Of a stretch of DNA of 64,000 nt, positions 1,884-20,244 are shown one piece after another. The notes below the pieces were generated by a model. It did no database searches and was not told the origin of the DNA. It saw only the letters and a list, made by a program, of their open reading frames with translations. Location: positions 1 through 64,000 of the forward strand of contig SLGK01000027.1 of NCBI GenBank assembly GCA_007123775.1. Direction: 5' to 3'. The position numbers and the translations under genes are program-made. Origin of the DNA: Anaerolineae bacterium. Lineage in GTDB: Bacteria; Chloroflexota; Anaerolineae; Promineifilales; Promineifilaceae. The first letter of the stretch is position 1. Each line of letters opens with the position of its first letter.

Positions 1884-3116
1884 TTAGCGCCGCCGCAGAA
1901 AAGCTGGTATTTCTAAATTGCCGGGCGAAAACCTTGACTGGGTGGGAACTGGTTCCGGTTCCCGCTCTTGTTCCCGTTTGGGTGGTTGGTCAGGCATGGC
2001 TAACTCTCTGTCAGGTGGGCTAACATTACTGCGGCTGAGCGGTCCCCGGCTGGGAGCTGACGATGCGTATCCAGGCTGTAGCAGCGTGCGACGACTCAGA
2101 CTGCGCTCAAAACCCGTGGCAATCACCGTTATGCGCAGCGCGTCACCCATCGACTCATCAATTACGGCTCCGAAAATCATATTGGCATCGGGGTGAGCCG
2201 TCTGACGAATAATGGTGGCGGCCTCATTGACATCAAACAGGCTCAGGTTTGAGCCGCCGGTGACGTTGAACAATATGCCCTGCGCCCCATCAATGGTCAC
2301 GTCCAGCAGACGAGAGTTGATGGCTTTCTCGGCGGCGTCACGGGCTTTGTCATCCCCCTCACCATAGCCAACCGCCATCAGCGCCGAACCACCTTCAGAC
2401 ATGATTGTTTTAACGTCGGCAAAGTCAAGGTTGATCAGACCTGGCACGGTGATCAGTTCGCTGATGCCCTGAATACCCTGGCGCAGTACGTCATCGACCA
2501 TCTTAAAAGAGTCGCTAAGGGAGACGCGGCGGTCGGTCAATTCCAACAGCCGGTCATTGGGAATGACAATGAGGGTATCCACATGCTCTTTGATGCGCTC
2601 GATGCCTTGCTCAGCGGCTTTGGCCCGCTGGCTACCTTCGAAGGTAAACGGCCGTGTCACTACCCCTATAGTTAACGCGCCCTCTTCGCGAGCCACTTTG
2701 GCCACGATGGGGGCGGCCCCAGTCCCGGTGCCGCCGCCCATACCGGCTGTTACAAAAACCATGTCAGAGCCTTTCAGCACCTCGTGAAGGTCCTCGATTG
2801 ATTCGGCAGCCGCATTTTCGCCCTGCTCCGGGTGGCCACCAGCCCCCAGACCTCGCGTCAGCTTCTCACCAATTCGGACCCGCGTCGGCGCGTCAGACAG
2901 CAATAATGCCTGGTTGTCGGTGTTAATAGCAATGAAATCAACACCGCTTACGTTGGCTTCAATCATCCGGTTAACGGCATTACTGCCACCGCCACCAACG
3001 CCGACGACTCGAATACGGGCCATGCTTTCCATTTCCGGCGCTCTTTGCATATGGATACCCTCTCTTGTTTGTACCTTACCAAACCTTTTACCGCGAAGGA
3101 GACAACTTTTCGCCAA
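1884..3116 (-). CDS. ftsZ: Cell division protein FtsZ (true start possibly ATG at about 3050)
   Basis: '[19 protein letters not shown]', '[15 protein letters not shown]', C-terminal '[10 protein letters not shown]'. Confidence 0.97.
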
Positions 3117-3247: not shown

Positions 3248-3460
3248 TTACAGCAATGTTGCTTTGTTACCAGGGCGGGGGTCATAGCGACTGGCGTATT
3301 GCTCTAGGGTTGCTTTGTCCACCAGCCATTTGTTGCCAAATTTGATCGCTGGTAATTTCCCCTGCCGAATAAGGCGGCGGACTGATTCAGGGTGGATATT
3401 CAACCGTTTGCTGACTTCAGCCACGCCTGCGTAGTTCTCCAGTAGGTCTTCTTTGCTCAT
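3248..3460 (-). CDS. Small excisionase/BldC-type helix-turn-helix DNA-binding protein
   Basis: 'GVAEVSKRLNIHPESVRRLIRQGKLPAIKFGNKWLVDKATLEQY' matches the HTH_17/excisionase pattern. Confidence 0.85.
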   Translation of the reverse strand: MSKEDLLENYAGVAEVSKRLNIHPESVRRLIRQGKLPAIKFGNKWLVDKATLEQYASRYDPRPGNKATLL

Positions 3461-3484
3461 CAGATTTTAACACCCAGCCCGGGT

Positions 3485-3526
3485 GCGGGATATTACAACA
3501 ATTTCAATGTTGAAACAATACAACAA
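3485..3526 (-). promoter_or_regulatory. Composite operator, copy A (shared with minC upstream region)
   Basis: + strand GCGGGATATTACAACAATTTCAATGTTGAAACAATACAACAA; two direct TACAACAA at 3494 and 3519, a third at 3562. Confidence 0.65.
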
Positions 3527-3543
3527 AACAAGCAATATGTCAA
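3515..3543 (-). promoter_or_regulatory. Putative sigma70-type promoter for the HTH gene
   Basis: Minus strand TTGACA (3543-3538), 17-nt spacer, TATTGT (3520-3515). Confidence 0.6.
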
Positions 3544-3646
3544 GTGCAATTGTTGATCAATTACAACAAATATAGTGTGTAGAGCGTATTTCGCAGCCTG
3601 AGTGACGACGGTCTACGCACTACGAACGACGCATTAAGAATTCGGG

Positions 3647-15587: not shown

Positions 15588-15660
15588 TAACGTAAAACGT
15601 AAAACGTAATGCGTAATGCGTAAGGTCTCTCCGGTTACGTTTTACGTTTTACGCATTACG
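15588..15660. repeat. Intergenic heptad-repeat hairpin
   Basis: taacgtaaaacgtaaaacgtaatgcgtaatgcgtaa ... ttacgttttacgttttacgcattacg. Confidence 0.9.
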
Positions 15661-16790: not shown

Positions 16791-16803
16791 GGTTTTCCTT
16801 GAG

Positions 16804-16915
16804 GCGTGGAGCGTGAAAAGTGAAACGTGAAGCGTGATGCGTAAAACGTAAAGCGTAAAACGTAAAGCGTAAAACGTAAACTACGCAATACGCAATACGC
16901 AATACGCAATACGCA
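16804..16915. repeat. 16 contiguous degenerate heptads (GCGTGAA -> GCGTAAA/ACGTAAA -> ATACGCA)
   Basis: 7-bp register is unbroken for 112 nt while the unit sequence drifts. Confidence 0.95.
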
Positions 16916-17043
16916 ATAATTCATCTTTTCCATTGTAGCCATTCTCCGTGCCAGGTGAAGTGATTATGACCACACAGGGGGCTGACAAACGTCATGAATG
17001 GCATGGGCAAAGGCTGTGTTGTGGGGGGTTGTGGTAAACGCCC

Positions 17044-17072
17044 TTGTCAAACCTACCCTGTTGTTGTATTAT
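17044..17072 (+). promoter_or_regulatory. Putative sigma70-type promoter for minCDE-rodA
   Basis: TTGTCA (17044-17049), 17-nt spacer, TATTAT (17067-17072). Confidence 0.6.
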
Positions 17073-17103
17073 TTCAACAATATTGTTTGTTGTATTATCC
17101 CGC
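17061..17103 (+). promoter_or_regulatory. Composite operator, copy B (shared with the HTH-ftsZ upstream region)
   Basis: TTGTTGTATTATTTCAACAATATTGTTTGTTGTATTATCCCGC; same order and orientation relative to promoter and gene as copy A. Confidence 0.65.
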
Positions 17104-17138
17104 AGTGGGCCTGATGGTTACGCGTATAACCCAATGGT

Positions 17139-17864
17139 ATGGAGACAACCTTGAGCCAGGCAACGATTAGCATAAAGGGCATTCGCGAGGGTTTGCTGTT
17201 TGCCGTGGATGGTTCGGGATCGGTGGCTGACGCGCTGGCTGAACTGGAGCAGGTGGTGGCAGAACGCCATGCTTTCTTGCAGGGCAGCCGCGTGGCGCTG
17301 ACCGTAGGTATGCGGCCGTTTACGGCCGATCAACTGCAAGCGGTGCAAACGCTACTGGCTGACCATGACCTGGAGTTGTGGACGGTGCTGGCAGAGCGAG
17401 CGGAGACACGCCAGGCGGCCCGCAAGCTGGGACTGGCCACGCGCCTGCCGGGTAGTCAAACTGATTTGGACGGGAATGTCCTGGCAGAAACGGCCGTTTC
17501 CAGGCAACCAGGTTCCCTTCACCCGGAACCAACGGCTACCGGCGATCTCTTTTTGCGCGAGACGTTGCGCTCAGGCCGCTCCGTTTATCACGAAGGGTCC
17601 GTTACTATTTTAGGCGACGTCAATCCCGGCGCGGAAATCATTGCTGAGGGCAGCGTGATCGTCTGGGGCCGGCTGCGCGGTCTGGTTCATGCGGGTGTTG
17701 GTGGCGACGAAACGGCCGTTATCTGCGCTCTCGATCTTAGCCCCACCCAGCTACGTATTGCCAATCAGATTGCTATTCCACCGGCCGAATCTCGCCCCAC
17801 TACTCAGCCGGAACAAGCAACTATTCGTCAGGGCCAGATTGTAGCCGCGCCATGGCATAAATAA
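17139..17864 (+). CDS. minC: Septum site-determining protein MinC
   Basis: 'VYHEGSVTILGDVNPGAEIIAEGSVIVWGRLRGLVHAG' and 'AVICALDLSPTQLRIA' MinC C-domain. Confidence 0.93.
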   Translation: METTLSQATISIKGIREGLLFAVDGSGSVADALAELEQVVAERHAFLQGSRVALTVGMRPFTADQLQAVQTLLADHDLELWTVLAERAETRQAARKLGLATRLPGSQTDLDGNVLAETAVSRQPGSLHPEPTATGDLFLRETLRSGRSVYHEGSVTILGDVNPGAEIIAEGSVIVWGRLRGLVHAGVGGDETAVICALDLSPTQLRIANQIAIPPAESRPTTQPEQATIRQGQIVAAPWHK

Positions 17865-17905: not shown

Positions 17906-18709
17906 ATGAGTGCAAAAGTAATCACCGTTACCTCCGGTAAGGGTGGCGTGGGTAAAACAACCGTCACCGCCAATCTGGCCGCGGCGTTGGCCATGATGGG
18001 CAACAAGGTTGTCACCATTGACGCTGATATTGGCCTGCGTAATCTGGACGTCGTCATGGGGCTGGAAAACCGGATCGTCTATGACCTGGTAGACGTGGTC
18101 GAAGGGCGCTGCCGTATCCGCCAGGCGATGATCAAAGACAAACGCCAGCCTGAGCTTTACCTTATCCCCGCGGCTCAAACCCGTGACAAAATGGCCGTAA
18201 GCCCCTCAGACATGGTGCTGGTATGCGACCAGTTGCGGGAGGAGATGGACTATATTTTGCTGGATTCCCCGGCCGGCATTGAGCGGGGTTTTCGTAACGC
18301 GCTGGCTCCGGCCGATCAGGTACTCATTGTCACCAACCCGGAGGTATCGGCCGTGCGTGACGCGGATCGGATTGTGGGGTTGATCGAAGCCGAGGAGAAA
18401 GGACCGGCCAAATTGATTATCAACCGGCTCAAACCGGCCATGGTAGCGCGGGGTGACATGCTCTCTATCGAAGATGTGCTGGACATTTTGATGATAGACC
18501 TGATAGGCGTTGTGCCTGAAGACGAGTCGGTGCTGGTGGCCAGCAATCAGGGTACCCCTATCGCTATGGCCAGCGTCAACGGCTCCAGCGCCGGGCAGTC
18601 GTTCCGCAACATCGCCCGCCGCCTGCAAGGGGAAGAAGTGCCCCTGCTGGATTTGATGGCCAAAAATGGATTTTGGGACCGTGTGCGCAACTGGGTCAAC
18701 GGTGTATAG
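17906..18709 (+). CDS. minD: Septum site-determining ATPase MinD
   Basis: 'ITVTSGKGGVGKTTVTANLAAALAMMGNKVVTIDADIGLRNLDVVMGLENRIVYDLVDV'. Confidence 0.97.
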   Translation: MSAKVITVTSGKGGVGKTTVTANLAAALAMMGNKVVTIDADIGLRNLDVVMGLENRIVYDLVDVVEGRCRIRQAMIKDKRQPELYLIPAAQTRDKMAVSPSDMVLVCDQLREEMDYILLDSPAGIERGFRNALAPADQVLIVTNPEVSAVRDADRIVGLIEAEEKGPAKLIINRLKPAMVARGDMLSIEDVLDILMIDLIGVVPEDESVLVASNQGTPIAMASVNGSSAGQSFRNIARRLQGEEVPLLDLMAKNGFWDRVRNWVNGV

Positions 18710-18712
18710 AGT

Positions 18713-18743
18713 GACTACAAAAGTCTGCCAGACTTTTGTAGTC
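18713..18743. repeat. Snap-back hairpin repeat, copy 2, between minD and minE
   Basis: GACTACAAAAGTCTGCCAGACTTTTGTAGTC. Confidence 0.92.
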
Positions 18744-18767: not shown

Positions 18768-19052
18768 ATGAGTTGGTTAGATAGATTATTTGGCAAAAAA
18801 GAGACGAGTAGTAATGTGGCCAAGCAGCGGCTGCAAATGGTCCTTATCCACGATCGCAGTGACATTTCCCCCGGCATCATTGAACAGATTAAGGATGAGA
18901 TTATCGAGGTAATTGCCCGGCGGCTGTCGGTTGATTCGGATAACGTGGTCATCAATTTGACCCAGACTGCCAAGGAAAGCCGGCTGGTGGCGGAGATTCC
19001 GCTGCAAAGTAGCAGGGTAGCGGAGTGGCGAAGTGGCGGGGTGGCAAAGTAA
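18768..19052 (+). CDS. minE: Cell division topological specificity factor MinE, with repeat-derived C-terminal tail
   Basis: 'SSNVAKQRLQMVLIHDRSDISPGIIEQIKDEIIEVIARRLSVD'; last residues 'RVAEWRSGGVAK' lie in the GTGGCGAA-type repeat. Confidence 0.93.
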   Translation: MSWLDRLFGKKETSSNVAKQRLQMVLIHDRSDISPGIIEQIKDEIIEVIARRLSVDSDNVVINLTQTAKESRLVAEIPLQSSRVAEWRSGGVAK

Positions 19053-19083
19053 CTTCGCCACTGCGCCGCTTTGCCACCCTGCT
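19013..19083. repeat. 7/8-bp-periodic GTGGCGAA-type repeat hairpin overlapping the 3' end of minE
   Basis: gtagcggagtggcgaagtggcggggtggcaaagt / aacttcgccactgcgccgctttgccaccctgc. Confidence 0.9.
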
Positions 19084-19140
19084 TAAGTGTCGCATTGGAA
19101 AAAGTAGACAAACTGAAACGGCCGTTTACAATACAGGGCT

Positions 19141-20244
19141 ATGTTATCAAACACGTCTGTTTGGCGACACTTTGATCTTTGGCTGGCAGCGGCTGTTCTG
19201 GTTTTGACGGCCTACGGCATCCTCATGATCCGCAGTGCTGTCACCGGTGCCCCTGCCCTAGAGCCACTGGCCGGGCAGCAGATTATTTGGGCCGTTATTG
19301 GTTTCGTCTTTATGATTGCCATGGCGGCCGTTGACTACCGCTATTTTGCCTCCTCCCACTGGTATATTTACGCCGTTCTGATTGTAGCCCTACTGATAGT
19401 CATCGTGGCCGGCCAGGTCAACAACGAAGCCCGACGCTGGATTAGCCTCGGTTTTATTGAGATTCAACCGTCAGAATTCGGCCGTGTCTTTATCGCCATC
19501 ACCTTTGGCCAATTCCTGGCCAGTCGGCGGCAGTATATTCACCGCTTCAGCAATACGATCATGTCCCTGGCCTACATTGGCCTGCCCATCGTCCTCATCT
19601 TCCTACAGCCCGACCTGGGGATGACGCTGCTTTACGTCGTTATCTGGTTTATCATGATCTGGCTAGCAGGACTGCCGCTGAGCCACTTTGCTGTGCTGGG
19701 GGCCATTGGTATTTTGGGTATCGGGGCCATCTTCCCCTTTTTAGCCCCCTACCAGCAAGAGCGCATTACCTCCTTTATCAACCCCGAAGCGGATACGGCC
19801 AGCGTATTCAACGTTGATCAGGCGGAGATCAGTATTGGCACCGGTGGTTTGTGGGGTAAAGGCTATATGCAGGGTACACAGAGCCAGCTTGGTTTCTTGC
19901 GCGTACAGCACACCGACTTTATTTTCTCCGTGGTTACGGAAGAAATGGGGCTGTTTTTTGGATCGGCCGTTGTGCTGTTGCTCATGGGGTTTATCTTGCT
20001 CAGGATTATCCAGGCAGCGGCTTTGACTACCGATCCGGCTGGAAAGTTGATGTGTGCCGGCATTGCCGGTATTCTCTTCTTTCAAACGCTGGTTAACGTG
20101 GGCATGAACGTGCGCCTGCTGCCTGTCACCGGTCTGACCCTCCCCTTTGTCAGCTATGGGGGCAGTTCTCTCATCACGCTCTTTTTAGCTATCGGTGTGG
20201 TACAATCAATCCGTATGCGGCATCGTAAACAAGAATTTGGATAA
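19141..20244 (+). CDS. rodA: RodA/FtsW family SEDS peptidoglycan polymerase
   Basis: 'EARRWISLGFIEIQPSEFGRVFIAI', 'KGYMQGTQSQLGFLRVQHTDFIFSVVTEEMG', 'LPFVSYGGSSLI'. Confidence 0.95.
   Translation: MLSNTSVWRHFDLWLAAAVLVLTAYGILMIRSAVTGAPALEPLAGQQIIWAVIGFVFMIAMAAVDYRYFASSHWYIYAVLIVALLIVIVAGQVNNEARRWISLGFIEIQPSEFGRVFIAITFGQFLASRRQYIHRFSNTIMSLAYIGLPIVLIFLQPDLGMTLLYVVIWFIMIWLAGLPLSHFAVLGAIGILGIGAIFPFLAPYQQERITSFINPEADTASVFNVDQAEISIGTGGLWGKGYMQGTQSQLGFLRVQHTDFIFSVVTEEMGLFFGSAVVLLLMGFILLRIIQAAALTTDPAGKLMCAGIAGILFFQTLVNVGMNVRLLPVTGLTLPFVSYGGSSLITLFLAIGVVQSIRMRHRKQEFG

Follow-up and report, generated by a model that had tools for sequence, protein, structure and literature searches.

A shared operator at the minC and ftsZ promoters of a Promineifilaceae bacterium and a proposed BldC-like regulator of division and replication genes

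The minC gene of an Anaerolineae bacterium of the family Promineifilaceae is preceded by a short AT-rich block that recurs at the head of a second division locus, raising the question of whether this block is a shared operator and, if so, which genes it serves and which protein binds it. The analysis was centered on a 64,000-nucleotide stretch of DNA, here termed the window. A sigma-70-type minC promoter, TTGTCA-N17-TATTAT, was recognized on the forward strand, with a −35 element at 17044 to 17049, identified from the sequence and from the minC promoters of the family, and a −10 element at 17067 to 17072. The −10 element lies within box 1, a dyad operator with the sequence TTGTTGTATTATTTCAACAA (17061 to 17080, + strand) that was defined by its sequence, genome count and family conservation. 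Box 2, TTGTTGTATTATCCCGCA (17087 to 17104, + strand), covers approximately +8 to +25 when counted from the inferred start site; this 18-bp box, TTGTTGTAWTATCCCGCA, starts 26 bp downstream of the start of the dyad. The initial annotation had described the operator as two direct repeats of TTGTTGTA. Both repeats were present on the + strand (17061 to 17068 and 17087 to 17094; 26 bp from start to start), the first overlapping a −10 element that is exactly 17 bp from the −35 element, and the match between the two copies of the block extended to TATCCCGC, as had been claimed. The description as a pair of direct repeats, however, was only partly upheld, as the first TTGTTGTA forms one arm of the inverted repeat TTGTTG-N8-CAACAA and the longer 18-bp box includes the second. 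The reported AT richness was reproduced, with a GC content of 22.5% for positions 17061 to 17100 versus 56.4% for the window; only 8 of the ∼64,000 40-mers in the window, this one included, were as AT-rich. There were 10 occurrences of TTGTTGTA in the window versus 1.4 expected, and across the 5.59-Mb assembly the exact dyad TTGTTGTANNNNNTCAACA was detected only three times, once before minC and twice before the second locus. Arrays of 7-bp units (CGTAAAG and TACGCAA) occupy positions 16800 to 16918, between the gene for a 4Fe-4S protein and the minC promoter, and similar sequence is also found near 15590 to 15660.

The second locus, copy A, is on the reverse strand and comprises a TTGACA-N17-TATTGT promoter with the same two boxes and an extra upstream dyad. 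The −35 element (TTGACA) is at 3538 to 3543, box 1 is the dyad TTGTTGTATTGTTTCAACA (3508 to 3526), which holds the −10 element TATTGT (3515 to 3520), and box 2 is TTGTTGTAATATCCCGCA (3484 to 3501). The previously noted TTGTTGTA copies at 3526 and 3501 were confirmed to be 25 bp apart on this strand, and a third copy, at 3569, had been missed. The upstream dyad, TTGTTGTAATTGATCAACAA (3550 to 3569, − strand), was present in 11 of 22 equivalent promoters of the family, usually 5 to 7 bp before the −35 element in relatives. Directly behind copy A is a 70-codon gene (3248 to 3460, − strand) for a winged helix-turn-helix (HTH) protein with an HTH_17 domain (PF12728) and a BldC-like fold, followed by ftsZ (open frame at 1884 to 3116, − strand, the likelier start being the ATG at 3050). 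This HTH gene, the candidate for the regulator, had been overlooked in the initial annotation.

The genes behind the minC promoter, all on the + strand, are minC (17139 to 17864; profile matches to MinC_C, PF03775, and MinC_N), minD (17906 to 18709; ParA/MinD family), minE (18768 to 19052; PF03776) and a rodA/ftsW-family gene (19141 to 20244; PF01098). The last of these is the presumed final gene of the min operon; in one relative, G019, in which minC was not detected, the operator directly precedes rodA. Inverted repeats were seen by eye between minD and minE (ACTACAAAAGTCTG and CAGACTTTTGTAGT; 18713 to 18742) and at the end of minE (18990 to 19085), and these could form hairpins within the operon that set relative expression. 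A palindrome, AACGGCCGTT, was present in 46 copies in the window versus 0.07 expected (for example, at 634, 17489, 17711, 17879 and 19117). This abundance recalls the HIP1 repeats of cyanobacteria, and many copies are intragenic.

The proposal that a common operator places the Min system and rodA in one regulon was staked on conservation of the boxes before minC among close relatives. A search of the first 24 family genomes, our own among them, recovered minC in 17, and an additional copy came from G022, a second species of genus g2. Boxes were present before minC in all 17 of these genomes, representing 16 genera, and the proposal was thereby supported; both boxes were detected in 13 promoters and one box in the other four (L033, L038, L042 and L048). 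The block was retained in these upstream regions even though the flanking sequence exhibited no visible alignment. When the alignment was anchored on box 2, information content was near maximal over the boxes, high at the −35 element and low elsewhere. A −35 element of the TTG type (TTGCAA, TTGCCA, TTGTCA, TTGCTA or TTGCCT) was located exactly 17 bp before the −10 element in 16 of the 17 minC promoters, and this spacing was observed almost throughout the family promoters. The distance from box 1 to box 2 was 25 to 28 bp, except in Promineifilum HTH promoters, where it was 18 bp. The 18-bp box, with up to one mismatch, was detected in 51 of 52 family genomes at 1 to 5 copies each, compared to a total of two matches for a reversed control. 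The HTH promoter of the sister family in the same order carries a related but altered box; a diverged box also precedes dnaN in one genome of that family. As all or nearly all of the genomes are metagenome-assembled genomes (MAGs) or drafts, absences constitute weak evidence.

The existence of the operator, the constancy of its geometry, the identity of its target genes and its conservation were established by computation. In 23 genomes for which gene positions were available, 60 of the 68 boxes were located no more than 300 bp before the HTH gene (19 boxes), minC (13), dnaN (21) or dnaE (7), and two further boxes belonged to an HTH promoter located at the end of a contig and to the rodA promoter of G019. 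Box orientation depended on the target, being the same as that of the gene in 32 of 32 cases at the HTH gene and minC and opposite in 28 of 28 cases at dnaN and dnaE. The dnaN box was present in all 21 family genomes in which the upstream region was scanned. No dnaN gene was found in our own MAG, which carries a third exact box ∼90 bp before dnaE on another contig. Where a −10 element could be called for dnaN or dnaE, it was mostly TATACT, and the reversed box started 10 to 16 bp (dnaN) or 1 to 10 bp (dnaE) after this element. The dnaE boxes were more degenerate than the others, and a recognizable box was absent from 3 of 18 dnaE promoters of the family. The mraZ gene was also preceded by a box in five Promineifilum-group genomes (genus g4), with a tandem pair in one. 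The initial annotation had drawn the regulon too narrowly, missing dnaN, dnaE and, in some genomes, mraZ. Genome-wide scoring consisted of a pattern search only; in our own genome, allowing up to three mismatches yielded 29 matches versus 33 for the control, and this lack of excess gives no basis for claiming additional weak sites. Outside the family, dnaN and dnaE were mostly without a box and the one-mismatch dyad pattern was near the control count in several genomes; regulon members were called there only for the promoter of the HTH gene itself.

Three further arrangements were observed. At locus L287 (G064), a dnaN gene with two boxes is divergent from the adjacent HTH-ftsZ locus, such that one intergenic region carries both operators. 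Upstream of dnaN at L215 (G326, from another family) is TACAACAACTGTTGTATACT, an inverted pair of half-sites overlapping the −10 element that is possibly a variant operator. In four Promineifilum-group genomes (L113, L116, L273 and L274), TTGTTGTATAATCCCGCA is found just before the start of a caspase-domain gene (Peptidase_C14); with TATAAT located within this box, the gene may be a regulon member or the box may be a mere promoter look-alike.

The HTH gene was present in all 17 high-quality genomes of the family. The protein is unusually conserved, with identities of 75 to 96% within the family, versus 52 to 65% for MinC, and 55 to 75% in other families of the class. It was followed directly by ftsZ at 43 loci and directly by minC at 9 loci from other Anaerolineae families, with minD behind where the contig was long enough. 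The operator was kept in 10 of 13 distant HTH promoters, as a TTGTTG-N7/8-CAACAA dyad (a box in one case) near the −10 element, and these operators scored above nearly all shuffles. As the HTH promoter keeps the operator beside either ftsZ or minC, the operator follows the HTH gene between neighborhoods; it is also retained at min operons that no longer adjoin the HTH gene. This joint pattern is the strongest evidence for the HTH protein as the regulator, and we strongly infer from gene linkage that this protein is the binder. The same operator was found at the promoter of the HTH gene and at the other targets across genera, the pattern of an autoregulated regulon. The HTH gene was not found in G048 (94% complete, 9% contamination) despite the presence of boxes, nor in box-bearing incomplete MAGs such as G004 and G046, where its absence probably reflects assembly gaps, and in G045 the HTH gene was preceded only by a weak box with three mismatches, a cutoff at which other matches were barely separable from the control.

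The HTH protein matched the HTH_17 (PF12728) and TIGR01764 profiles, scoring 51.7 bits (cutoff, 27) and 47.7 (cutoff, 28.8), respectively. Its AlphaFold model (mean pLDDT, 83) has the winged-HTH elements, and the protein is a stand-alone MerR-like winged HTH of 70 amino acids with no effector or coiled-coil domain, which is the BldC type of organization. The best solved matches by Foldseek were BldC-DNA complexes (6ama/6amk), with a TM score of ∼0.8 on the target but E values of only ∼5e−3; identity to BldC was 23% over ∼50 residues, and a phmmer search against solved structures detected neither BldC nor anything else useful. The TIGR01764 excisionase family and HTH_17 are the sequence families of this protein, but the linked gene was ftsZ or minC, in contrast to the integrase or recombinase linkage of mobile-element excisionases. 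A match to mad1 in PADLOC (30 bits) was attributed to generic winged-HTH resemblance and was not taken as an indication of a defense function.

BldC is a DNA-binding transcription regulator of Streptomyces that assembles into head-to-tail multimers on AATT-N4-C direct repeats (PMC5859096). Both are small proteins consisting only of a MerR-like winged HTH (68 amino acids for BldC), but the identity is ∼23%, the sites here are TTGTTG-N8-CAACAA dyads or the 18-bp box rather than AATT-N4-C repeats, and the BldC regulon is developmental rather than composed of division and replication genes. The sites studied here combine direct repeats 25 to 26 bp apart with a clear dyad, and no AATT-N4-C consensus was visible by eye; the dyad suggests a binding arrangement different from, or additional to, the head-to-tail mode. 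The 18-bp box, unlike the TTGTTG-N8-CAACAA form, is not a clean dyad. Joint control of division and replication genes by one regulator is known for CtrA and GcrA, cell-cycle regulators of Alphaproteobacteria, one of which, CtrA, is a response regulator that is phosphorylated and has a large regulon. The proteins and sites are unrelated, however, and the system described here involves four to five promoters and a protein with no sensor domain. MraZ is likewise a small regulator heading division genes, in its case the dcw cluster, and is autorepressed through repeats in its promoter, but its fold and repeats are different, and mraZ of Promineifilum itself carries the new box.

These observations make it likely that the minC block is the operator-promoter of a minCDE-rodA operon belonging to a small cell-cycle regulon, whose autoregulated repressor would be the BldC-like HTH protein. 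Its binding sites would be dyads of the form TTGTTG-N8-CAACAA and, related to these, the 18-bp box TTGTTGTANTNTCCCGCA, with the dyad over the −10 element and the box at approximately +8 at the HTH-ftsZ and minC promoters and a single reversed box just after the −10 element at dnaN and dnaE. The bound protein would block the binding or escape of RNA polymerase. Expression of the HTH gene together with ftsZ, of the Min system together with rodA, and of the sliding-clamp and replicative-polymerase genes would thus be repressed and then released in concert. Repression by the HTH protein is suggested by the position of the sites, and any cell-cycle timing or signal would be a further supposition; as the protein has no sensor domain, the signal that relieves repression may lie in its own level or in a partner.

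Activation of these promoters by the HTH protein, for example by MerR-like distortion of the spacer, is unlikely. The fold is that of the MerR/BldC superfamily, in which many MerR proteins are activators, the box 1 dyad extends into the spacer, and the weak minC −35 element could need help. Classical MerR activation, however, involves over-long spacers of 19 to 20 bp rather than the 17 bp found here, and the boxes of dnaN and dnaE, 1 to 16 bp downstream of the −10 element, are in what is usually a transcription-blocking position. As the sites are in blocking positions and the spacer is already at the optimal 17 bp, the most likely mode is repression combined with negative feedback. A genuine operator and regulon bound by a different transcription factor, with the HTH gene merely a further target, is also rather improbable. 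Most MerR-like and excisionase-like proteins serve other roles and a few genomes, including G048, have boxes but no detected HTH gene, but no other regulator gene was found next to a recurrent site, the dyad persists in the HTH promoter even in families in which min, not ftsZ, is the linked locus, and the HTH protein is more conserved than MinC.

An alternative sigma-factor element or a structured RNA element in the 5′ untranslated region, which might be suggested by a box that overlaps or follows the −10 element and would fall in this region, was rejected as very improbable: ordinary −35 and −10 elements are present, and the box is reversed at every dnaN and dnaE site, which neither type of element allows. 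A search of the window with Rfam detected only two tRNAs. Chance similarity among AT-rich promoter sequences has a negligible probability despite the AT richness of the boxes and their overlap with a −10 element. The initial annotation had judged chance unlikely, and conservation of the block across genera excludes it; the occurrence in 51 of 52 genomes versus two control matches, the nonrandom target genes and the restriction of the exact dyad to two loci led to the same rejection.

No description of division or cell-cycle control in Chloroflexota, of an ftsZ/dnaN/minC regulon or of BldC-type regulators of ftsZ was found in open-licence papers, which is not proof of novelty. Some members of Promineifilum grow as filaments in activated sludge. 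In this family, a little-studied group of Chloroflexota, cell division and DNA replication are probably under the joint control of a single small DNA-binding protein. The prospects are about evenly balanced that this one-domain protein is the dedicated cell-cycle transcription regulator of a Chloroflexota lineage, in a feedback loop with ftsZ or minCDE, that sets the Z ring, the Min system, the clamp and the polymerase jointly. The gene of the putative regulator moved between neighborhoods (from min to ftsZ or in the opposite direction), and the operator was retained at both. The regulon (ftsZ, minCDE-rodA, dnaN and dnaE) is compact and predictable, such that coupling of division to replication could be tested with one protein and synthetic promoters, without culture. 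If the proposal is correct, division and replication capacity would be tied together at the level of transcription by a protein of 70 amino acids.
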